The position numbers and the translations under genes are program-made. A model generated the notes under the pieces. That model was not told where the DNA came from, searched no databases, and was given only the letters and a program-made list of their open reading frames with translations. A stretch of 58,889 nt of DNA from Terriglobia bacterium (GTDB lineage Bacteria; Acidobacteriota; Terriglobia; UBA7540), in the NCBI GenBank assembly GCA_030037755.1, contig JASHQD010000092.1, forward strand, positions 1-58,889, read 5' to 3'. Of this stretch, positions 1,584-58,707 are shown in pieces; within the stretch, counting starts at the first letter, position 1; each line of letters begins with the position of its first letter.

Positions 1584-1801
1584 CCGCAGGGGATTTTAGC
1601 ACAGTCCCTATTGCTTTATGCGCGACGGTAGCCTGGGGGAAAACAGAAGGCATCGCCCGGGCAGGAGGAACAAGCCTGACCCGCCATAGAGACCGCGTGC
1701 TCAAGGTGCAACCGGAGCCGGAGCTTGCGATCGAACCCCGGTGCGGCCCTTGCCACTCGACTTGTCACTTGCCACTGCACGTGATAACGTAGGCCCGGCT
1801 T

Positions 1802-19077: not shown

Positions 19078-19830
19078 ATGCGCGGGCTTCGAGACAAGCG
19101 GATTCTGATTACTGGCGGCGCCAGCGGCATTGGCGCGGCCACGGCGGCGCGATTTCTCGATGAGGGCGCGCGCGTCGTAGTCCTCGATCGCGATGCGGAG
19201 GGCCGCCGCAGGATCGCGGCCGAATTGCCGGCGCTCGCGGGGGTTGTGGCTGCTGATGTCTCGCGGCTCGACGAGGTGCGGCGGGCGTTCGCCGAGGCTC
19301 TCCGGCTGCTGGGCGGCGTGGACGTGCTCATCAACAATGCCGGGATCAGCATCCGGCACAACTTTCTCGAAATCACGCCCGAGGAATGGGACCGCGTACT
19401 GGCTGTGAACCTAACCGGCGTTTTTTATGTCGCGCAGACGGCAGCGCGGCACATGATGGAGCGCGGGAGCGGCGTGATCCTGAATACGGCCTCCACGAAT
19501 GGCATCGTGGGGTATCCGTACTACGCCGATTACAACGCCACCAAGGCCGGCGTGATCGAGCTAACCCGGTCTATGGCGCTTGAACTCGCTCCCAAGGTGC
19601 GCGTGAACGCTGTCGCGCCGGGCTATGTTCTCACGCCCATGCAGCGCGCCGAATACACCGGCGAGATGCTGGCCGAGGTCAATCGCAAGATTCCGCTGGG
19701 GCGCCACGCGAAGCCGGAAGAAGTAGCGGCGCTGTTCGCCTTTCTCGCCTCGGACGACGCCCCGTTCATCAGCGGGCAAGTTTACACGATAGACGGCGCG
19801 GAAACGGCCGGGGGATTGGCTAGCCGGTGA
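19078..19830 (+). CDS. Short-chain dehydrogenase/reductase (SDR)
   Basis: 250 residues from the ATG at 19078; the frame is open to 18946 but the extra residues are not SDR-like. Motifs: nucleotide-binding ITGGASGIGAATAARFLDEG, VLINNAGIS, and the catalytic Tyr-Lys in YYADYNATKAGVIELTRSMA. The C-terminal GQVYTIDGAETAGG is the classical SDR end. The substrate is unknown. It opens a cluster with an aminotransferase and a second SDR, hinting at oxidation and amination of one intermediate. Confidence 0.9.
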   Translation: MRGLRDKRILITGGASGIGAATAARFLDEGARVVVLDRDAEGRRRIAAELPALAGVVAADVSRLDEVRRAFAEALRLLGGVDVLINNAGISIRHNFLEITPEEWDRVLAVNLTGVFYVAQTAARHMMERGSGVILNTASTNGIVGYPYYADYNATKAGVIELTRSMALELAPKVRVNAVAPGYVLTPMQRAEYTGEMLAEVNRKIPLGRHAKPEEVAALFAFLASDDAPFISGQVYTIDGAETAGGLASR

Positions 19831-19835
19831 GGGAA

Positions 19836-19945
19836 GTCAGAATTGAATTCAGAAGTCAGAAGCAGAGTCGGAAGACCGGATTCGGAAGACCGGATTCAGA
19901 ATTCAGAATTCAGAATTCGGAATTGAGAATTGAAGAAGTCAGAAA
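19836..19945. repeat. Heptanucleotide repeat array
   Basis: From 19869 the sequence runs in strict 7-bp phase: CGGAAGA-CCGGATT twice, CAGAATT three times, then CGGAATT, GAGAATT and GAAGAAG. The stretch 19836-19868 is also mostly in 7-mers. It lies between the SDR stop and the aminotransferase start and has no stable ORF of its own. Confidence 0.85.
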
Positions 19946-19988
19946 ACGGACTTCCTCCCTGCGATGGACGGAGATCGGCGCTAAGCCT

Positions 19989-21317
19989 ATGCACAGTCGC
20001 ACTTCTCGATCACGTCAGCTCTTCGAGCGCGCCGTCGCCAGCCTGGTCGAGGGTGGCAGTTCGCCCTCGCGAGGTCCGGCGAATTATGGCGATAATCCGC
20101 TGTTCATCGAGCGCGGCGCCGGAGCTCATATCTGGGATGCCGACGGCAACAAGTACCTTGACTGGATGATGGCGTATGGCGCCTTGCCGCTCGGCCATGC
20201 TCATCCGCGGATTGTCGAAGCCATCGTTGAAGCCGCACAAGGCGGGACGCTGTTTGCCGCCGCGACCGGGATCGAAATTGAAGTCGCGGAGATGCTCCGC
20301 AGGATGATTCCCGGCGCAGAGCGCGTGCGCTTCGCGAACACCGGCACCGAAGCCGTGATGGCTGCAATCCGCCTGGCACGGGGCTTTACCGGCCGGCCCA
20401 AGTTCATCAAGTTCGAAGGCCACTATCACGGCTGGTACGACGATTTCCTGGTCAACGCGCATCCGCAGCCCGTGGCCTCGCTCGGGCATCCGCATGACCC
20501 GGTGAAAATCGCGGACAGCTCCGGATTGAATCGCCGGGCGCTCGAGGACACTGTGGTCGTGCCTTGGAACGATCTTCAAGCAGTCGAGCGCGCGCTCGAA
20601 ATCAATCGCGGACAGATTGCAGCCATCCTGAGCGAGCCCGTCATGGCCAACATGGGGGTGATTCCGCCTGCGCCGGGCTATCTCGCGGGGCTCCGCAGGC
20701 TCGCCACCGAGCACGGCGCTCTGCTGATTCTCGATGAAACCGTGACGGGATTCCGCATCGCGCCCGGCGGTTGCCAGCAACACTTCGGCGTCGCGGCTGA
20801 CCTCGCCACGTTCGGCAAGGCGTTGGGCTCCGGCTTGCCAGTCGCTGCTATCACGGGACGAGCCGAGATTATGGACGGCTTTGCCTGGGGCGGCGTGCTG
20901 CATTACGGGACGCAGAACGCGTCGCGGATCGGCCTGGCCGCGGCGCTCGCCAGTCTTCGCGAATTGCAGCGCGATAGTGGCGCCGCGTTCACGCACCTCT
21001 GGCGAATCGGCGAGCAGCTTGTCGCGGGACTCAATGACGCGTTCCGCGAAACCGGCACGCGCGCGATCGCGCAAGGCATAGGTCCGATGTTGCAGGTTCT
21101 TTTCACCGACCGGCGCGCGATTAGCGATTATCGCGAGTTCTGCGCGTATGTCGATCGCGGCAAGTATCGCAGGCTGGCGCTGGCCCTGTTCGAGCAGGGC
21201 GTCTACATGTCGCCCTCGGCCGCGCTGCACTCCGTGAGTTCGCTCGCGCACACGGAGGACGACGTGAGATTCACGGTGGATGCGGTGAGAAAGGTCCTGG
21301 GTGATGGAGGGTTCTGA
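19989..21317 (+). CDS. Class III aminotransferase, glutamate-1-semialdehyde aminomutase-like
   Basis: 442 residues from the ATG at 19989. The frame is open to 19827, but that part is the repeat array. Signatures: GAGAHIWDADGNKYLDWMMA, MRFANTGTEAVMAAIRLA-type block (VRFANTGTEAVMAAIRLARG), EGHYHGWYDDFLV, LILDETVTGFRI and the PLP lysine in ATFGKALGSGLPVAAITG. It resembles HemL paralogues. Its placement between two SDR genes argues against haem synthesis and for a catabolic or secondary pathway. The stop lies inside the next gene (14-nt overlap). Confidence 0.88.
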   Translation: MHSRTSRSRQLFERAVASLVEGGSSPSRGPANYGDNPLFIERGAGAHIWDADGNKYLDWMMAYGALPLGHAHPRIVEAIVEAAQGGTLFAAATGIEIEVAEMLRRMIPGAERVRFANTGTEAVMAAIRLARGFTGRPKFIKFEGHYHGWYDDFLVNAHPQPVASLGHPHDPVKIADSSGLNRRALEDTVVVPWNDLQAVERALEINRGQIAAILSEPVMANMGVIPPAPGYLAGLRRLATEHGALLILDETVTGFRIAPGGCQQHFGVAADLATFGKALGSGLPVAAITGRAEIMDGFAWGGVLHYGTQNASRIGLAAALASLRELQRDSGAAFTHLWRIGEQLVAGLNDAFRETGTRAIAQGIGPMLQVLFTDRRAISDYREFCAYVDRGKYRRLALALFEQGVYMSPSAALHSVSSLAHTEDDVRFTVDAVRKVLGDGGF

Positions 21318-25176: not shown

Positions 25177-25212
25177 GAGAAGCGAGAATCTAATGAGAAG
25201 CGAGAATCTAAT
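25177..25212. repeat. 18-bp perfect tandem duplication
   Basis: GAGAAGCGAGAATCTAAT occurs twice head-to-tail (25177-25194 and 25195-25212) and the first three bases recur at 25213-25215. It lies just after the ClC stop and at the left edge of the IS110 element. Confidence 0.9.
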
Positions 25213-25254
25213 GAGTGGTCATGCCGCTTTGCGGCACCCACAAAGCATGAAAAT

Positions 25255-25447
25255 GAGCTCGAGCTCGATTTATGATCGACTCGGTCTGTGCTGGACGAAG
25301 GCCAGTAATCCTTGGAGCCGCAAGCCCGTTAATGAGTCTGGCCTGGGCATCGTTCCGCACCCCAAATTGTCGTCTCGTTTCGGCGAGAGCGCGCGAAGCA
25401 GATTGCTTCCTCTTTCGATGTCCTCCAGCACAGGCCGAGAGGAGTCG
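25255..25447 (+). ncRNA. Candidate IS110 bridge RNA
   Basis: The region between the left end and the transposase start can fold. AGGCCAG (25299-25305) pairs with CTGGCCT (25338-25344) around a 32-nt internal loop, and a TGCCGC-TTT-GCGGCA hairpin stands upstream at 25222-25236. A looped RNA in this position is the known location of the bridge RNA in the IS110 group. The boundaries and the target and donor loops cannot be fixed by eye. Confidence 0.45.
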
Positions 25448-26686
25448 ATGATGGAAGAAATTTATGGTTGCTGTGCCGGTTTGGATGTCCACAAGCAGTC
25501 GGTCGAAGCCTGCGTGCGGCGGATGGAGCCGATCAGCCGGCTGCCTCAGGAAACGCGCCATTGGGGGACAATGACCCGAGACCTTTTGGCGATGGCGGAC
25601 TGGATGGCCGCGCAGGGTGTCACCCACGTGGCCATGGAATCGACCGGGGTGTACTGGAAACCGATCTACAACATCCTGGAGAGCCGCTTCACGGTGCTGT
25701 TGGTGAATGCGCGCCACCTGAAACAAGTGCCCGGACGGAAGAGTGACGTGCGCGATTGCCAATGGATCGCCCAACTGCTGCAACACGGGCTGCTGAAAGG
25801 CAGCTTCATTCCGCCGCGCCCGCAGCGCGAGTTGCGCGACCTGACCCGGTTGCGAGTGCAACTGGTGGAAGAGAAAACGCGCACCGTCAACCGCATTCAC
25901 AAGGAACTGGAAGACGCCAACATCAAACTGGCCTCGGTGGCGACGGACATTCTGGGCGTATCGGGCCGGGCGATGCTCACTGCCTTGATCGAGGGCCGCA
26001 AGGATCCAGCCCAACTGGCCGATTTGGCGCAGCGGCAGTTGCGGGGCAAGATCCCGGAGTTGGAAAAGGCCCTGGAAGGGCAGGTGACGGACCACCACCG
26101 TTTCATGCTGCGGCTGCTGTGGCAACACCTGGCCCAGCAAGAGGAACTGATTGCCGAGTTGGACACCAAGATCGAGGAGAAAACGCGCCCTTTTGCCGAT
26201 GAGATCGAGCGTCTGGACGCCGTGCCGGGTGTGGATCGGTGCGCGGCGGCCGTGGTGCTGGCGGAAGTGGGAGCAGACATGAAGCCCTTCCCCAGTCATC
26301 AGCATTTGGCTTCCTGGGCCGGGATGTGTCCAGGCAACGAAGAAAGTGCCGGGAAGCGGCGGAGGCGCCGCATCACTCCGGGGAACCGCTGGTTGAAACG
26401 GACCATGGTGCAAGGAGCTTGGGCGGTCAGCCGCCATAAGAACTCTTATTTGGCAGCCCAATATCGACGCCTGGCAGGACGACGAGGCAAGAAACGGGCT
26501 TTGGTAGCTGTGGGCCATTCGATGCTGGTGATCTTCTACCATATGCTGAAAAACGGCACGACCTACGCTGATCTAGGCGGCGACTTCTTCGATCGCCTCG
26601 AACCGGAGCGTCTCACTCGATACTACGTCAAGCGCCTGGAAAGCCTAGGTCACAAGGTTACGCTCGAATCCAAGATTGCTGCCTGA
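25448..26686 (+). CDS. IS110-family transposase (DEDD recombinase)
   Basis: 412 residues from the ATG at 25448. The frame is open further upstream, but that part is the noncoding left end. The RuvC-like DEDD domain is seen in YGCCAGLDVHKQSVEACVRR (Asp13), THVAMESTGVYWKPIYNILE and GRKSDVRDCQWIAQLLQHGL. The C-terminal Tnp domain has LDAVPGVDRCAAAVVLAEVG and the serine-bearing GNEESAGKRRRRRITPGNRW. It is full length with no frameshift, so the element may be active. Confidence 0.93.
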   Translation: MMEEIYGCCAGLDVHKQSVEACVRRMEPISRLPQETRHWGTMTRDLLAMADWMAAQGVTHVAMESTGVYWKPIYNILESRFTVLLVNARHLKQVPGRKSDVRDCQWIAQLLQHGLLKGSFIPPRPQRELRDLTRLRVQLVEEKTRTVNRIHKELEDANIKLASVATDILGVSGRAMLTALIEGRKDPAQLADLAQRQLRGKIPELEKALEGQVTDHHRFMLRLLWQHLAQQEELIAELDTKIEEKTRPFADEIERLDAVPGVDRCAAAVVLAEVGADMKPFPSHQHLASWAGMCPGNEESAGKRRRRRITPGNRWLKRTMVQGAWAVSRHKNSYLAAQYRRLAGRRGKKRALVAVGHSMLVIFYHMLKNGTTYADLGGDFFDRLEPERLTRYYVKRLESLGHKVTLESKIAA

Positions 26687-26730: not shown

Positions 26731-26963
26731 GCTGTAGCGGCGCTCTATGAGCGCCGGTTTCCCTAACCCGGCAGAGCCGGAACCAATGAGGCCACGTCGA
26801 CAGTGAACAGTCGACAGTCAGCAGGTGGAGACTTCCGAACCGTATGGACAAAGGTCCAAATCGAAGTGGCCAAAATATCCTGCCAGAAAAGGGCAGAATC
26901 TTACGATAGAGGAACTGAAGAAACTGTGCCGAAAAGCCGGCGCTCATAGAGCGCCGCTACAGC
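26731..26963. repeat. Inverted palindromic repeats bracketing a 155-bp dispersed repeat
   Basis: A 27-nt element (GCTGTAG then CGGCGCT-CTATG-AGCGCCG) at 26731-26757 recurs perfectly inverted at 26937-26963. Each arm is itself a hairpin. Between them, at 26762-26916, lies a 155-bp sequence that recurs at 56731-56887 with only scattered differences. This covers the whole gap between the transposase and pqqE; no gene is supported there. Confidence 0.9.
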
Positions 26964-32871: not shown

Positions 32872-32990
32872 GAGTCGAGAGTCAAAGGTCGAAAAGTCGA
32901 GAGTTGAGAGTTGAGAGTCAGAGGTTATGAGTCGGAAGTCGAGGAGATGGACTGAAGACTGAAAACTGACAAAACTGACCACTGACAACT
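32872..32990. repeat. Heptanucleotide repeat array
   Basis: Begins right after the DUF1634 stop: GAGTCGA, GAGTCAA, AGGTCGA, later GAGTTGA twice, then ACTGAAG, ACTGAAA and ACTGACA. The 7-bp phase is kept for most of the stretch. It contains no ORF of interest. Confidence 0.8.
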
Positions 32991-40410: not shown

Positions 40411-42792
40411 TTAGAGTTTGCGGTGCCCTCGCCCGGCCTGGATGCGTAGCAAGGCCGCCACGAGTGCGTCGATGTCCTCGCGAGTGTTGTAGAGCGCCAG
40501 TGACGGCCGGACTGTGGCCTCTAATCCGAACCGCCGCAGGATCGGTTGAGCGCAGTGATGGCCGGCGCGTACTGCGATGCCCTCCTGATCGAGCGCCGAC
40601 CCCACATCCTCGGGGCGAGTCTCGTCGAGGACGAACGATATTACGCCCGCCTTTTCGGCTGCGGTCCCGATGATCCGGAGCCCGGGTACCGTCCCGAGGC
40701 CAGCAGTTGCGTAGTTGAGAAGGTCGTGCTCATGACGAGCCACGTTCTCGATGCCAACTTCGCTCAAATAATCCAGCGCGACGCCGAGACCGACGGCATC
40801 GGCGATATTGCCGGTGCCGGCCTCGAAGCGCGCCGGCGGAACGTTGTAGACGGTCTTCTCAAACGTGACGTCCAGAATCATGCCGCCGCCGCCCTGCCAC
40901 GGTGGCGTGTGTTCAAGGACGCTCTCTTTGCCGTAGACCACTCCGATTCCCGTGGGACCGAATATCTTGTGGCCCGAGAACACGAAGAAGTCGCAGTCGA
41001 GAGCCTGCACGTCCTCACGCATGTGCGCCGCGGACTGCGCGCCGTCCACGAGCACGAGCGCTCCGTAGCGGTGAGCCATTTCGATCATCTCGCGCGCCGG
41101 CGTGATGGTGCCGAGCGCGTTTGAAACGTGGCTCAAAGCCACGATGCGTGTCCGCGGTCCGAGAAGCCTCTCATATCGTTCGAGGATGATCTGGCCGCGG
41201 TCGTCGACAGGCGCCACCCGAAGGCAAGCGCCCTTTTCCGCACACAGCTGCTGCCAGGGAACAATGTTGGAATGGTGTTCGAGCCAGGTGATCACCACTT
41301 CGTCGCCCTTCTGGACGTTGCGGGCTCCCCAGCTCTTGGCCACCAGGTTGATGCCTTCCGTAGTGCCGCGCACGAAGATGATGTCTCGTGTGGAAGGGGC
41401 GTTGAGGAAACGGCGCACCTTCTCGCGCGCACTTTCGTAAGCATCGGTCGCTCGCGCCGCGAGAGCGTGGGCGGCGCGGTGGATGTTGGAGTTTTCGTGC
41501 CGGTAGAAGGATGAAAGGCGGTCGATCACCGCCTTGGGTTTTTGGGTTGTAGCGGCATTGTCAAGCCAGATCAGCGGTTTCCCGTGCACCTGCTCCTGCA
41601 GGATGGGAAAATCGCCGCGAATCAAATAGGGGTCGAAGGGCCGCTTCGATGTCCCAAGGTCCGGAACGACTTCGGGATGGACCTCGACAGACTCACTGGG
41701 ACTTCCGCCGGCCGCTGCAGGCGAGGCGGCAGCAGGAACTTCAGGCGCGCCCGGTGTTGTCACCGTGGAAGGTTGAATCGCGCCTGGGTCGCCGCCAGCG
41801 GACGGAGCCGGCGCGGAAGGCAGCGGCGGAATCCCCGGCGCCGATTGCGCACCGGGCACTCCGGGCAAGTTGAACATGTCGCCCGTTGACGGTAGTGAAG
41901 GCGCAGCACTGAACGGTCCGACGGGACCCGTCTCCGGAGTTGAAGCGGAGGACGAACCTGGCGCGCCGCTGCCGGGCAAGTCAGGGACCTCTGTTCTCAC
42001 CCCGGCCGGCGACGTGGCCTGGGCATGCAGGTCCGACTCCGATGGCAGGTCCGTTGATGCCGCTGAAGGCGAGGCCGGAGCGTCCGCCGGGTAGACCGCG
42101 CCCTCCGGGAACGAGAACAAGCCTCCTGCCGGCGGAATTACCGGAGGAATATTCAGAGGCGCGGCCCCTTGCGTGTCCAAAAAGTAGGCCGCCACTCCTA
42201 GCGACGGAGGTGCAGCGCCGGAGGGTACCGCGACCAGCGCTGTCGCCGCTCCCAGCGATGCCGGCAGTACCCGAAGCTCAGCCTCGGTCGGTGGCGCTGG
42301 TGGCGAAGGCAAGGAGGGACTGCCGGGAAGAGAATGCAGATCCGGCCCGCCCGGCACCGAGAGCAGCATCGCCGGGAAGACGGGTGGAGTATTCGGAGAC
42401 GACGGCCTGACGCCATCGAACGCGGTGACGGGTGAGCCGGGCGCCCCTTGCGACGGAACGGCGAAGGGGTTGGCAGGCGCCAGGCCCGCCGCTCCCGTGA
42501 AGGAAAGGGGCAGCGTGCGGCCTTCAGGCTCAGTTGCAGGTCCAGTCCCCGCACCCACGGGCGATTCGGCCGGCGGACCCTCTCCGTGGGCCGCCGAAAC
42601 GGGCGGCGATGACCACGGCAACGCCGCGAAGAACTCGTTCGCGAGCCTCGCGATCACGGCTGGATCTGGCGGCGCCGCCAGGCCAATCGGCAGGTTTCCC
42701 CCCGCGGGCGAAACTGGCGCAGTTGAGGTCAGTTCCGGCGTGAGCGCACCCGCCGCACCGGGATCACTTGTACTCATGGTATTGGCTGACAT
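40411..42792 (-). CDS. Encapsulin cargo: SufS-like cysteine desulfurase with giant disordered N-terminus
   Basis: 793 residues from the ATG at 42792, which has GGAGG 6 nt upstream. Residues 1 to about 383 are rich in Pro, Ala, Ser and Gly with almost no predicted fold. They hold one hydrophobic patch (AVIARLANEFFAALPWSSPP) and several LPG/IPP-type linear motifs. From about 384 a full type II desulfurase follows: PLIWLDNAATTQKPKAVIDR, PLP Lys609 in FVFSGHKIFGPTGIG, catalytic Cys747 in RAGHHCAQPILRRFG. This is the layout of the CyD cargo of family 2A encapsulins. It overlaps the shell gene by 29 nt. It should load sulfur from cysteine into the shell. Confidence 0.92.
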   Translation of the reverse strand: MSANTMSTSDPGAAGALTPELTSTAPVSPAGGNLPIGLAAPPDPAVIARLANEFFAALPWSSPPVSAAHGEGPPAESPVGAGTGPATEPEGRTLPLSFTGAAGLAPANPFAVPSQGAPGSPVTAFDGVRPSSPNTPPVFPAMLLSVPGGPDLHSLPGSPSLPSPPAPPTEAELRVLPASLGAATALVAVPSGAAPPSLGVAAYFLDTQGAAPLNIPPVIPPAGGLFSFPEGAVYPADAPASPSAASTDLPSESDLHAQATSPAGVRTEVPDLPGSGAPGSSSASTPETGPVGPFSAAPSLPSTGDMFNLPGVPGAQSAPGIPPLPSAPAPSAGGDPGAIQPSTVTTPGAPEVPAAASPAAAGGSPSESVEVHPEVVPDLGTSKRPFDPYLIRGDFPILQEQVHGKPLIWLDNAATTQKPKAVIDRLSSFYRHENSNIHRAAHALAARATDAYESAREKVRRFLNAPSTRDIIFVRGTTEGINLVAKSWGARNVQKGDEVVITWLEHHSNIVPWQQLCAEKGACLRVAPVDDRGQIILERYERLLGPRTRIVALSHVSNALGTITPAREMIEMAHRYGALVLVDGAQSAAHMREDVQALDCDFFVFSGHKIFGPTGIGVVYGKESVLEHTPPWQGGGGMILDVTFEKTVYNVPPARFEAGTGNIADAVGLGVALDYLSEVGIENVARHEHDLLNYATAGLGTVPGLRIIGTAAEKAGVISFVLDETRPEDVGSALDQEGIAVRAGHHCAQPILRRFGLEATVRPSLALYNTREDIDALVAALLRIQAGRGHRKL

Positions 42793-43690
42793 CGACATCC
42801 TCCAAGACTCCGATTGCATCTTCCGTGAGGACCGCGATCGAGCAATACAGTGAAATCAGATAAGAGGCAATCGCCTTGTGGTCGATCCCCATGAAGCGGA
42901 CCGAGAGGCTCGGCGACACTTCGCCTGGCAAACCGGGCTGGAAGAGCCCGACGACACCCTGCTTGCTCTCACCTGTCCGCAGCAGCAGGATGCTGGTCTT
43001 CTCTTTCTTGATGGGCAGCTTGTCACAGGGCACCAGCGGGACACCCCGCCAGGTCAGGAAGGGCGAACCGAAGAGCGTGGCGGTCGGAGGCGGCACGCCG
43101 CGGTACGTACACTCGCGTCCGAAGGCGGCAATGGCGCGCGGATGCGCAAGGAAGAACGCGGGCTCTTTCCACACCGTGGCAATCAATTCATCCAGATCGT
43201 CCGGCGTGGGGCCGCCCTTTCTGGTCTTGATATGCATATCCGCTGACACGTTGTTAAGGAGCCCGTATTCCTTGTTGTTGACGAGTTCCCGCTCCTGGCG
43301 CTCCTTGATCTTCTCAATGATCAGGCGCAGTTGCTCGCGGATCTGATCGTGAGGGCTGCGGTAAAGGTCGGAAATGCGGGTGTGCACGTCGAGCGTGGTG
43401 GTCACCGCGCTCAGCGTGTACTCACGCGGCTTCTCTTCATAATCGACGTATATCTCAGGTAGTAAAACTTCCTCGCCAGGCGCGCACTCGACGGTGCGGG
43501 TCCCTGGCGCCGTTGGCTTCACCTTGTTGACCCGATACTTGCCGGCTTCCACGGGTACCCAGGGCAGGAACGTGATCAGCCAGCGCGGCGTGATCTGCTC
43601 CATCATGGGTACAGTCTTGGTGACGACAGCGAGTTGCTGTGCACCTTCCACGCCCAGTGTGTGGCGGGTCGGTGTTGTCTCTTCTGGCAT
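42764..43690 (-). CDS. srpI: Family 2A encapsulin shell protein (SrpI-like)
   Basis: 308 residues from the ATG at 43690, with AAGGAG about 8 nt upstream. It has the HK97-fold family 2A sequence pattern: LGVEGAQQLAVVTKTVPMME, QITPRWLITFLPWVPVEAGK, VLLPEIYVDYEEKPREYTLS, AVTTTLDVHTRISDLYRSPH, QERELVNNKEYGLLNNVSAD and SLSVRFMGIDHKAIASYLIS. These shells self-assemble from one protein and package a cysteine desulfurase; elemental sulfur storage has been shown for related systems. The desulfurase gene follows directly. The frame is open upstream, but residues before 43690 are not conserved in type. Confidence 0.93.
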   Translation of the reverse strand: MPEETTPTRHTLGVEGAQQLAVVTKTVPMMEQITPRWLITFLPWVPVEAGKYRVNKVKPTAPGTRTVECAPGEEVLLPEIYVDYEEKPREYTLSAVTTTLDVHTRISDLYRSPHDQIREQLRLIIEKIKERQERELVNNKEYGLLNNVSADMHIKTRKGGPTPDDLDELIATVWKEPAFFLAHPRAIAAFGRECTYRGVPPPTATLFGSPFLTWRGVPLVPCDKLPIKKEKTSILLLRTGESKQGVVGLFQPGLPGEVSPSLSVRFMGIDHKAIASYLISLYCSIAVLTEDAIGVLEDVDVSQYHEYK

Positions 43691-44118
43691 GCCATTAACT
43701 CCTTTCGGGCTGATTGGAAACTGCGTTAATTTCCGAGACTCGGCTCGGACGACCTCTCGGGCGAGGCTCCCCGGCACTTGGCTGGGCTCGCAACGCGGCC
43801 CGAGAAAACACGGGAACGCGGGCGCTCCTGTTGGGTACGGAGCCCCTCTGCATCGGTTCTAGGGAACCCTCCAGTCGTCCGGTCGGGGAATAAATGACGG
43901 TCGGCGAGGTGCACTGTACAGAACGTACGGATCCGGCTGAATGCTCCCTCGCGTCCAAGCGATCGTTTCGCCTGTCACCAACAGCGTGGTGTTCGGAGGT
44001 TCCCGCGGTCTGTGACGACGGTCACACATGCCGGTGTTATGCCTGCGTACGGACTTCCGCGATGCGATCCCTTAATAGTCTACTATTTTAATGGAGTTAG
44101 TTGTAGTACGATGCTGCA
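43691..44118. promoter_or_regulatory. Divergent control region between encapsulin operon and yezD
   Basis: 428 bp with no supported gene. Two palindromes stand out: TGTGA-CGACGG-TCACA at 44011-44026 (perfect CRP-type half-sites) and AATAGT-CT-ACTATT at 44074-44087. The encapsulin leader on the minus strand can form GGTTC/GAACC (43855-43868) and a GGGCGCTCC/GGAGCCC stem (43820-43845). No named riboswitch was recognised. Confidence 0.55.
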
Positions 44119-48609: not shown

Positions 48610-49647
48610 AACCCCTCCTGGCAACGGTCATACTTTAGCTGCCTCTGTGACCGCATGCGGGCGCAGGCGGCGGCAGAGAAACGGCATACAGTTTGCATGG
48701 CAGGCCCTTCGCGAGGCAAGTCGTAGAATCGCGCTGTAGCGGCGGTGTCCCCACCGCTGAAGCGACGCTCATCCGAAGCGGCGGTAGGGAAACCGCCGCT
48801 AGAGTGGGCCCAAGTGTAACAAAGTGTAACCGGAAAGCCGGTCCCGTGAGGCTTTGCAGGCGAAAAGCTGCATGTACACTGCCCTTTTCAAAAAAACGGC
48901 CTTTTTTTCGGCGCAACCTTATGAAAATAAGTGATTTAGCCTCAATGGCTTTGGCAATGGTCATATCTGACCTAATCTTTTGATTCTATGGCAGTTAACC
49001 CTAATGGCTTTGCTGGCTTTGGAGAGGCCTCCCTGAGCCTGCCTTTTGCTGAAAACAGCCCTTTTTTCGTCGTAACTCACTGAAAACAGAGAAGATGACC
49101 TTAGTGGCTTTGGCAAAGGCGAATTCTCGACTAAATTACTCATTTTGAAGCTCTTAGCCCTAATGGCTTTGGTTGGCTTTGGGGATTCTGTCGCCGGGCG
49201 GCGTTCACGCCAGGATCTCGAACAGTTCTCTTTCAAGGTGAGCTGCAAACTCCCCTCCAGGCGCTCTGCCTTCCTGGAAATTGCCTCCAGACCGAGCTGA
49301 AGGCGGCGACGTTGACGAGTCCGAAGATGAAGACGGAATCTGATGGCTAATCACAGCAGTTTCAACGGACAGCTGGAGCCTAGCAGGCTTGTGGCGGCAG
49401 GTAAAGGTATAAGACGTTTTGCACGGTAGCGAATGTTCCGAATGTTTACAATGTTTCTGGGCCGGGCTCAGCCAGCCTTCGAGTCGCTTACCGCGACGTG
49501 CACGCGGATGTTCCTGGCACTGTACAAAAAGCCGCCCCAGCGCGAGATCAGGACACCACCCGCCGCGGCCTCGCGTTGACATGCGCCACTGGCGGTATGG
49601 GAGAATCGGCACGAGATGAAATTACAGCTGTAACTTATGGAACATTT
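48610..49647. other. 1-kb intergenic region rich in repeats
   Basis: Starts with a tandem pair of TGTAGCGGCGGT palindromes (48732-48804). From about 48885 to 49190 an AT-richer segment of about 155 bp occurs twice with many differences; both copies hold AATGGCTTTGG- and TTAGTGGCTTTGG-like words, poly-T tracts and GAAAA runs. The rest (49200-49647) holds only weak open frames on both strands. No gene is supported. Confidence 0.6.
48732..48804. repeat. TGTAGCGGCGGT palindromic repeat pair
   Basis: CTGTAGCGGCGGT-GTCC-CCACCGCT is followed, after 21 nt, by GCGGCGGT-AGGGAA-ACCGCCGC and TAGAG. Both are hairpins, and the outer TGTAG/CTAGA ends are nearly inverted. Same family as the elements at 26.7, 51.8, 57.9 and 58.8 kb. 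Confidence 0.85.
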
Positions 49648-51780: not shown

Positions 51781-51852
51781 CTGTAGCGGCGGTGTCCTCA
51801 CCGCCGAAGCAGAGATGATCTGGATGCGGCGGTGAGGACACCGCCGCTACAG
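51781..51852. repeat. TGTAGCGGCGGTG large inverted palindrome
   Basis: A 26-nt arm (51781-51806) and its perfect inverse (51827-51852) around a 20-nt loop. Each arm is itself a hairpin (CGGCGGTG-TCCT-CACCGCCG in the first). The unit lies between the isomerase stop and the PhyH start and could fold into a two-lobed structure. Confidence 0.95.
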
Positions 51853-51874
51853 CCTGAACTAGGAAGGTAAGAAA

Positions 51875-56589: not shown

Positions 56590-56885
56590 AGGTAAGAGCG
56601 CTTTCTAATCACTGATTATAACATTTACGTGCGAGGTGTCAGAGATTGCCGATTGACGATTGCCGATTTTCGATTGGGCGCGTCGATCGGCAATCGCCAA
56701 TTACAAATCGGCAATTCCTGGCTCCCAATACCTAACCCGGCAGAGCCGGAACCAAAGAGGCTACACGTCGACAGTCGACAGTCAACAGTCAGCAGGTGGA
56801 GACCTCCGAACCGTATGAACAAAGGGCCAAACCGAAGTGGCCAAGATATCCTGCCAGAAAAGGGCAGAATCTTACGATAAAGGGA
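56590..56885. repeat. Repeat-filled gap: GATTGAC heptamers and second copy of the 155-bp repeat
   Basis: 56644-56720 carries GATTGCC/GATTGAC heptamers followed by their inverted version (AATCGGCAAT type). 56731-56887 is the second copy of the 155-bp repeat first seen at 26762-26916, with CTGCC-AGAAAAG-GGCAG as an internal hairpin. The peptidase stop codon lies at the very end of this repeat. No gene supported. Confidence 0.85.
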
Positions 56886-58106
56886 CTAGCACCTGACACC
56901 TAGAAACCGCCGCGCGGTTTCGATCAACACCTGTGCGCAGCTGGTGACGGAATCGAGATCAACCCATTCGACGGCTTCGTGAGCCCCGGCGCCTGCGGGT
57001 CCGTAGTTAACGGTGGGAATGCCGGCGGCGGCGAACAGTGCCGCGTCCATCCAGTAGCCGACCCCGATTTCTTCAGGCGCGCGGCCCGTCACCGCGGTGG
57101 CGGATTCGCGGACCGCAAGCGCAATCTGCGCGTCGCGATCGCAGACGAGCGGCGGACGATCCAGCAGTATTCGGATTTCAGCGTTCCCGCCCGCGCCTGG
57201 GACCGACGCGCTACAGCCGGCCCGTTCGACGACCTGCGTGACCTCGTCCAGCACAGCGGCCGTCGACTCGCCCGGCAGCGTCCGCCGCTCGACTTGCAGC
57301 ACGCATTTCTCGGCATAAGTGGACAGGCCGCTGCCGCCCGAAATCATGGAGGCATGCCCGGATGCCGGACCAAGCAGGGGATGCGTGCGCCGGCGCAGTT
57401 CGGTGCGATCGAATTCGTCAAGCGCGCTGATGATCCGCCCCATGGAAGCGATCGCGCTCACTCCCAGGTCCCAGCGACTGCCGTGCGCCGCGCGCCCCCG
57501 CGTGGTGATCTCGATCCAGACGAAGCCTTTATGCGCGAGCACGAGGCGACCCTCGCTCGGTTCGGTCAGCACGCAAGCGTCGGCCCGATGACGACGGATG
57601 AAATCCTGGGCGCCCAGGCTCGCGTATTCCTCATCGGCCACAAGCGCGGCCAGCACGCGTCCGGGGAGCGATTCCTGCGCGAGCGTCACCATCGACGCCA
57701 TGATCGCCGCGGCGCTGCCCTTCATGTCGTAAGCGCCGCGACCGTAAACGCGTCCGGCCTCGACCCGCGGCTCGAACGGCGGAATCGTCATGCCGGCGGT
57801 CGCGACGGTATCGAGATGCGCGCAAAGCACCAGCGTGCGCCCCTTGCCCTCGCCAATCCCGGCGACCGCATTCACCCGCTGTAGCGGCGGTCTATGACCG
57901 CCGGATTCGTATCGTTCCCCGTCATCGGGCCCGGCGTCCTCCGTCCAGCCTCGCACGCCGCGCGACGATAGCCATTCGCACGCCACACGAGCGATCTCGG
58001 CCTCGCCCGACCCGTGTTCGGGATCGATCGAGGGATTCACCGATGGCGTGCGAATCAGGAGTTGCAACGCGTCAAGGGCGTTTGCCTGTAAGATATCAAG
58101 TTCCAT
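56886..58106 (-). CDS. M20-family metallopeptidase (ArgE/DapE-like)
   Basis: 406 residues. The first metal ligand and base are H97 and D99 in TLVLCAHLDTVATAGM. The bridging Asp is in GRGAYDMKGSAAAIMASMVT and the catalytic Glu pair in LVADEEYASLGAQDF. It removes an acyl group from an amino acid or a residue from a peptide. Residues 68-76 (SGGHRPPLQ) are encoded by an in-frame palindromic repeat (57885-57903) and lie just before the first metal ligand. The gene otherwise looks intact. Confidence 0.88.
   Translation of the reverse strand: MELDILQANALDALQLLIRTPSVNPSIDPEHGSGEAEIARVACEWLSSRGVRGWTEDAGPDDGERYESGGHRPPLQRVNAVAGIGEGKGRTLVLCAHLDTVATAGMTIPPFEPRVEAGRVYGRGAYDMKGSAAAIMASMVTLAQESLPGRVLAALVADEEYASLGAQDFIRRHRADACVLTEPSEGRLVLAHKGFVWIEITTRGRAAHGSRWDLGVSAIASMGRIISALDEFDRTELRRRTHPLLGPASGHASMISGGSGLSTYAEKCVLQVERRTLPGESTAAVLDEVTQVVERAGCSASVPGAGGNAEIRILLDRPPLVCDRDAQIALAVRESATAVTGRAPEEIGVGYWMDAALFAAAGIPTVNYGPAGAGAHEAVEWVDLDSVTSCAQVLIETARRFLGVRC
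57882..57909. repeat. TGTAGCGGCGGT palindrome inside a coding gene
   Basis: CTGTAG plus CGGCGGT-CTATG-ACCGCCG, same loop as the elements at 26.7 kb. It lies inside the M20 peptidase gene, keeps the frame and encodes SGGHRPPLQ. Confidence 0.9.
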
Positions 58107-58593: not shown

Positions 58594-58621
58594 CGAAATC
58601 GGGACCAGGTCAGGGACTGCC

Positions 58622-58707
58622 GATTTACGATTGACGATTGACGATTGCCGATTGACGGGGCGCAATCGAAAATCGGCACTCAGCAATCGGCAATCCCCTG
58701 AACCCTG
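58622..58707. repeat. GATTGAC heptamer array with inverted arm
   Basis: GATTTAC, GATTGAC twice, GATTGCC and GATTGAC in strict 7-bp phase (58622-58656), followed by CGCAATCGAAAATCGGCA and AATCGGCAAT (inverted). Same word and layout as the array at 56644-56720, 2 kb away on the other side of the peptidase/SET pair. Confidence 0.85.

Follow-up and report, generated by a model that had tools for sequence, protein, structure and literature searches.

Heptanucleotide arrays with a fixed polarity in a genome of Terriglobia

Why tandem repeats of bacteria prefer a unit of 7 bases is a question that has stood since 2007. According to the summary of a survey from that year, most repeat-rich bacterial genomes have heptanucleotides as their commonest class of long simple repeat (Mrazek 2007, via PMC4679880), and the contact length of a polymerase has been put forward as a guess for the 7-base unit (Mrazek 2007, via PMC4679880 and PMC4692102). 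The same question is raised by the stretch of DNA analysed here (the window, 58,889 nucleotides), which belongs to the draft genome of a Terriglobia bacterium (6.68 Mb, 86% complete) and at many intergenic sites of which a sequence-only reading had pointed out arrays with strict 7-base phasing. The window encodes an 889-aa ADOP permease (TIGR03434, 985 bits), a protein type that is an acidobacterial hallmark; it also holds a Family 2A encapsulin shell gene adjoining a cysteine desulfurase cargo gene (40411-43777).

Heptad arrays in the window and their period

Five of the six places named in the sequence-only reading agree within a few bases with TRF calls (Table 1), although one of them, given as 26801-26824, had been placed 5 bases too late; the sixth, 1749-1777, was undetected by TRF. 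Words at the sixth site are spaced 12 and 7 bases apart, and because the orthologous gap of a congener (G001) holds about four clean heptads (CTTGTCACTTGCCGCTCGCCACTTGCCACT), we regard it as a decayed array. The earlier reading lacked the array at 56767-56795 and the inverted arms at 56686-56725 and 58662-58695.

Table 1. Positions of heptad arrays, hairpins and element copies in the window
Feature	Position	Strand	Content	Basis; TRF calls of period 7/14
Decayed relic of CTTGCCA heptad array	1749..1777			congener comparison; no TRF call
Degenerate heptad array	19833..19944		AGTCAGA, then CGGAAGA/CCGGATT x2, then ATTCAGA x5	TRF: 19833-19861, 19868-19901, 19894-19944
158-bp element, copy 1	26762..26916	+	carries (GTCGACA)4	
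Heptad array in copy 1	26796..26819		(GTCGACA)4	TRF: 26796-26819; element alignment
Heptad arrays	32872..32990		GAGTCGA/GAGTTGA, then GACTGAA/ACTGACA	TRF: 32872-32923, 32950-32990
Hairpin	56635..56725		5' arm GATTGCC GATTGAC GATTGCC GATTTTC; 3' arm CAATC heptads	TRF: 56644-56676
158-bp element, copy 2	56731..56888	+	carries (GTCGACA)n	
Heptad array in copy 2	56767..56795		(GTCGACA)n	TRF: 56767-56795; element alignment
Hairpin	58613..58697		5' arm GATTTAC GATTGAC GATTGAC GATTGCC GATTGAC; 3' arm CAATC heptads	TRF: 58621-58657; inverted arm 58662-58695

Arrays are absent at most orthologous sites of the congener. The 19.8k array sits between an SDR gene and a gene for a class-III aminotransferase (likely ATG at 19989), and the ORF 19827-21317 spans it only if a far-upstream GTG start is used; the orthologous gap of the congener has unrelated sequence instead. 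Between the DUF1634 gene and the sigma-70-type factor gene that flank the 32.8k arrays, the congener carries a heptad hairpin of a different word (CGAAANT / ANTTTCG). The congener also lacks both hairpins at the orthologous sites: the one at 56.6k, which precedes an Hsp70-type gene, and the one at 58.6k, which directly follows the stop codon of a SET-domain gene. At the latter site the pair of flanking genes is kept, with about 110 bases fewer between them. As RNA, the two hairpins fold far better than shuffles (-45.3 kcal/mol, z -4.3, at 56.6k; -42.9 kcal/mol, z -3.5, at 58.6k), whereas the advantage over shuffles is slight for the arrays at 19.8k and 32.8k (z -1.1 and -1.6). No known RNA family matched at the arrays.

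The period was scanned by self-match at lag p in 28-base frames at 74% identity or more, with one genome per species, over 495 kb of the window's genome (including 20 stretches picked because their contigs held GATTGMC matches) and 675 kb of the congener. Period 7 accounted for 72 arrays in the former sample and 67 in the latter, period 8 for about 10 and 9, and each of the periods 4-6 and 9-13 for 0-1 and 0-3, respectively; a dominant period 7, a minor period 8 and almost nothing else is the pattern in three genomes, and the unit is thus near-exclusively 7(-8) bases. Order-4 Markov sequence gave 0.7 period-7 arrays against the 72, so that the enrichment over background on which the sequence-only reading depended is indeed present. 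Its statement that words differ by site while the period is kept was likewise borne out: the main words GATTGNC, GTCGACA, TCAGCNN, CGAAANT and CGGTTGY all share the 7-base unit, and a few arrays are AGGGGTC-like. Some arrays of period 8 have similar words and also form hairpins (L234:7508-7624 and L254:4300-4396; GATTGAGT, GATCGGGT).

Densities, which describe samples and not whole genomes, vary widely. They reached 7.1 arrays per 100 kb in 211 kb of the window's genome not chosen for arrays, and 34 per 100 kb in G106, a near-complete relative of the same class (stretches near GATTGMC matches, where most arrays are of other words); no arrays were seen in 117 kb sampled from G011, of the same family as the window's genome, or in 50 kb sampled from E. 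coli. Period 7 is therefore a real, strong and lineage-dependent property. An assembly artefact was rejected, since arrays occur also in G106 and in named isolates. The tandem pattern GATTGMC x2 has 82 occurrences in the window's genome and 49 in that of the congener; the reversed pattern has none. At least 119 stretches carry GATTGMC x3, and they come from about a dozen phyla, including Chloroflexi, Planctomycetota, Verrucomicrobia, Bacteroidetes, Nitrospirae, Proteobacteria, Spirochaetes and Cyanobacteria; picked by one word, these loci indicate breadth and not frequency. With GATTGMC masked, they still held 45 period-7 arrays of other words and 13 of period 8; most of the periods that have no relation to these two gave 0-4.

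Inverted pairs, polarity and placement

Mismatches within arrays cluster by phase, and the two most variable positions are adjacent in 56% of cases compared with 36% under permutation; the unit is therefore made up of about five fixed and two free bases, as in CGATT-NN, ACAGT-YR and TCAGC-NN. Words drift along an array, with identity falling from 0.71 through 0.67, 0.62 and 0.53 to 0.42 at distances of one to five units, as local duplication predicts.

Beyond simple direct arrays, many of them form polar hairpins, which the sequence-only reading had missed. Core words in inverted orientation within 150 nt numbered 228, about fourfold the 57-60 of a swap control, compared with 78 against 60 for direct orientation, and two or more inverted cores lay nearby in 55 of 139 arrays. 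Many arrays are therefore arms of imperfect hairpins, whose loops range from a few to more than 100 bases and which can be nested, as where a GATTG hairpin encloses a CGAAA hairpin (L176:13290-13453). Arms of the same hairpin are more alike than arms swapped within the same word (0.78 versus 0.70 for GATT, 0.69 versus 0.53 for CAGT), as fold-back copying predicts.

Each word keeps to one arm. Across the window's genome and the congener, GATTG stands on the 5' arm in 16/16 hairpins, CGGTT in 4/4, ACAGT in 3/3, AGTGG in 6/6 and TCGGG in 5/5; CGAAA and TCAGC have one exception each, which fall on a non-heptad spot and on the gap between two neighbouring hairpins. A word-blind, de-duplicated count gave 13/13 and 11/11, with 12/13 in G106, although such counts are not fully independent owing to gene duplications and element copies. 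The 5' arm is also richer in G than in C in most hairpins of four sets (15/19, 17/22, 18/22 and 21/29). The polarity of GATTG is reversed in a Pyrinomonadaceae MAG, in Acidobacteria MAG52, in one Verrucomicrobium and in Niastella, and polarity is therefore a habit at the level of the genome.

Arrays are depleted from genes and from divergent promoter gaps. With genes called by a simple hexamer model, there were 0.69 arrays per kb outside and 0.055 inside predicted genes, so that the description of the sites as intergenic mostly stands; some of the "inside" cases reflect over-extended start codons. Divergent gaps held 0.32 arrays per kb, compared with 0.85 for co-directional and 0.81 for convergent ones (p 6e-5). 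When co-directional gaps are divided into fifths, the one adjoining the 3' end of the upstream gene contained 32 of the 89 arrays (p 5e-4). Hairpins of TCAGC and GATTG also recur just 5' of start codons in L235, L237 and L173, at genes that resemble tandem paralogues, possibly of ADOP-type permeases.

Dispersed elements and known repeat systems

Some arrays ride on dispersed elements. The 158-bp element present twice in the window matches at 41 places in its own genome and, weakly, at two in the congener; it combines several predicted stems with an internal heptad array. Among 23 aligned copies, the array consists of 3, 4, 5 or 8 heptads, apart from one copy with 6 and an irregular unit; outside the array, the copies are gap-free bar a few single- or two-base gaps, and two have short inserts beside the array. 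This alignment is direct evidence that array length changes in 7-base steps, as seen between dispersed copies of one element with one genome per species.

Several other repeats were noted in passing. The copy at 26762-26916 lies just downstream of an IS110 transposase gene (25193-26686) and is bracketed by a REP-like inverted pair GCTGTAGCGGCGCTCTATGAGCGCCGG (26731-26760 / 26934-26963), and a copy in L284 has a similar bracket. Further REP-like palindromes (CTGTAGCGGCGGT...) are found at 48737-48803, 51781-51854 and 57877-57905; the congener has about 25 matches to the second, and G010 many copies of the third. A dispersed repeat at 48884-49182, rich in GGCTTTGG, has about a dozen matches in the congener.

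REP sequences have a GTAG foot, show no 7-base phasing and are linked to a RAYT transposase. Dispersed extragenic hairpins with fixed polarity are common to REP/REPIN systems and the present genome, but the heptad hairpins have neither a GTAG foot nor common ends, counts of Y1_Tnp are unrelated to array density, and the REP-like elements of the window occur separately from the heptad hairpins. STRR, to which the sequence-only reading had likened the arrays, are named 7-base words that stand in tandem between genes of heterocystous cyanobacteria. The likeness holds for unit length, degeneracy and intergenic position; the class, however, is not special to cyanobacteria, and going by the description of STRR, the present arrays differ in their Acidobacteriota host and in their many words, which change between congeners.

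The arrays belong to a class of heptamers that has been on record since 2007 from Xanthomonas, cyanobacteria and others. A 7-base unit repeated beyond chance and a location mostly outside genes, which define the class of Mrazek, are both found here; that work is a general survey, and degeneracy, inverted pairing and polarity do not figure in its summary (PMC4679880). The closest match is with the GGGAATC (GGGANTN) heptamers of Xanthomonas, reported along with GGGGA(T/C)T of Nostoc (Rehm et al. 2015, PMC4692102). Those of Xanthomonas have about five conserved and two variable bases in 2-26 intergenic copies, form 70-75 inverted pairs in convergent orientation, lie nearer the end of the upstream gene and are rare in divergent gaps, and their long arrays are unshared between related species (PMC4692102). 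Degeneracy, convergent inverted pairs whose 5' arm has the G-richer word, the 3' bias, the paucity of divergent sites and the lack of sharing between related species all match the present arrays. Each Xanthomonas genome, however, has one G-rich, quadruplex-capable word, whereas GGGANTN is not among the main words of the genome studied here, which has many coexisting words, some of them nested and most too G-poor for quadruplexes. The TAACTGA repeats of Beggiatoaceae, Cyanobacteria and Bacteroidetes (MacGregor 2015, PMC4679880) share the 7-base unit, the intergenic position and the many sites per genome, but consist of one word, almost only direct, just 5' of start codons, in contrast to the many words, the inverted pairing and the bias to the 3' sides of genes described here. 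New in the present case are the polarity rule, the 7/8 spectrum and the test of steps within one element. The sequence-only reading knew of no such description for the group of its host, and our search of the literature, as far as it could be carried, found no earlier heptamer report for Acidobacteriota either.

Candidate causes

The explanation we favour, and to which we give about an even chance, is slippage of replication in units of 7(-8) nt combined with fold-back copying, tolerated downstream of genes. As DNA is replicated or repaired, slippage that favours a unit of 7, and less often 8, would create the arrays and change their length; fold-back (template-switch) copying would turn them into imperfect hairpins; and the arrays would drift quickly in sequence and be tolerated mainly 3' of genes, where their cost would be least. 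We infer both causes from the step changes and arm resemblance described above, and the sites themselves appear to be neutral or slightly costly rather than useful, although the preference for 3' ends could also mean function. Plain slippage would be expected to yield units of 3-6 and 9-12 too, but these are missing, and fold-back copying gives by itself no account of the same-arm polarity of words. The two processes together explain neither the choice of 7 nor the fixed polarity.

A function at the RNA level is unlikely in our judgement. In that case the inverted arrays would be structures at transcript 3' ends (acting in attenuation, Rho-type termination or stability), and their arms would be able to re-pair after slippage thanks to the 7-base phasing. 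The stable folds of the two window hairpins and the bias towards the 3' side of the upstream gene, away from divergent gaps, would suit such a function, as would a slight surplus of G-U over A-C mispairs once hairpins are oriented by transcription (58 vs 43); yet this surplus is not significant (two-sided p about 0.16), array density is no higher between convergent genes, the congener does not conserve the sites, and two of the window's arrays (19.8k and 32.8k) hardly outfold their shuffles. Nor are the two window hairpins intrinsic terminators, which combine a GC-rich hairpin with a T run: no T-run terminator overlaps either of them. It is similarly improbable that the arrays are families of miniature mobile elements, whose words would have been spread by a transposase in trans and would have inherited word and polarity from one founder. 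The near-confinement of the 158-bp element to one of two congeneric genomes, the near-perfect polarity of each word within a genome and outer frames that recur among several GATTG hairpins, such as TCAGGGAATTGCCGATTG, point in that direction, but most arrays have unrelated loops and flanks without common ends, many words, including nested ones (as at L176), obey the same phasing, and the REP-type Y1 transposase is found 3 times in the window's genome and 6 times in G011, where no array was seen in the 117 kb sampled.

Near-exclusive unit length and consistent polarity could also be the work of an enzyme dedicated to 7-nt steps, such as a telomerase-like reverse transcriptase that adds heptads to broken 3' ends; joining two ends extended in this way would give head-to-head polarity, and the excess of G over C on the 5' arm recalls telomere ends. 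We consider such an enzyme very unlikely, because no RVT_1 domain was found in the window's genome (86% complete) despite its many arrays, the variable bases within the heptad fit poorly with one fixed template, and period 8 also occurs. Least probable of all is a gain of cyanobacterial STRR families by transfer. The unit length is the same, and one word found here, GTCAACA/CAACAGT, equals what we take to be an STRR word, but a dozen other words bear no relation to it, congeneric genomes have different words, even at the orthologous 32.8k site, and similar arrays of other words exist in about a dozen phyla.

Three further candidates were also weighed. Loss of mismatch repair is contradicted by the presence of MutS in array-rich genomes, which excludes a general slippage mutator as the cause. 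The SbcD hairpin nuclease (TIGR00619) scores above cut-off in only 8 of 151 relatives of the class, all of one family, and these 8 genomes have almost no GATTG arrays; SbcD is, however, also missing in the array-free G011 (117 kb sampled), so that its absence may permit hairpins but does not predict them and is at most permissive. A role in placing stop codons in three frames, for which 7 qualifies by being prime to 3, was given little weight, since periods 4, 5, 8 and 10 would be equally suitable.

Slippage with fold-back copying thus leaves the ruler and the polarity to be accounted for. We tentatively raise the possibility that cells have a process which measures out 7(-8) nt, lays down tandem heptamers where genes end and copies them in mirror image with one polarity; it would act in certain lineages, spread over about a dozen phyla, and not in close relatives of these. 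Within a single class, array density ranges sharply, from the 34 per 100 kb of G106 to none in the 117 kb of G011; with this contrast, the polarity rule and an element whose heptad count varies between copies, the cause of the 7-base preference can now be sought.
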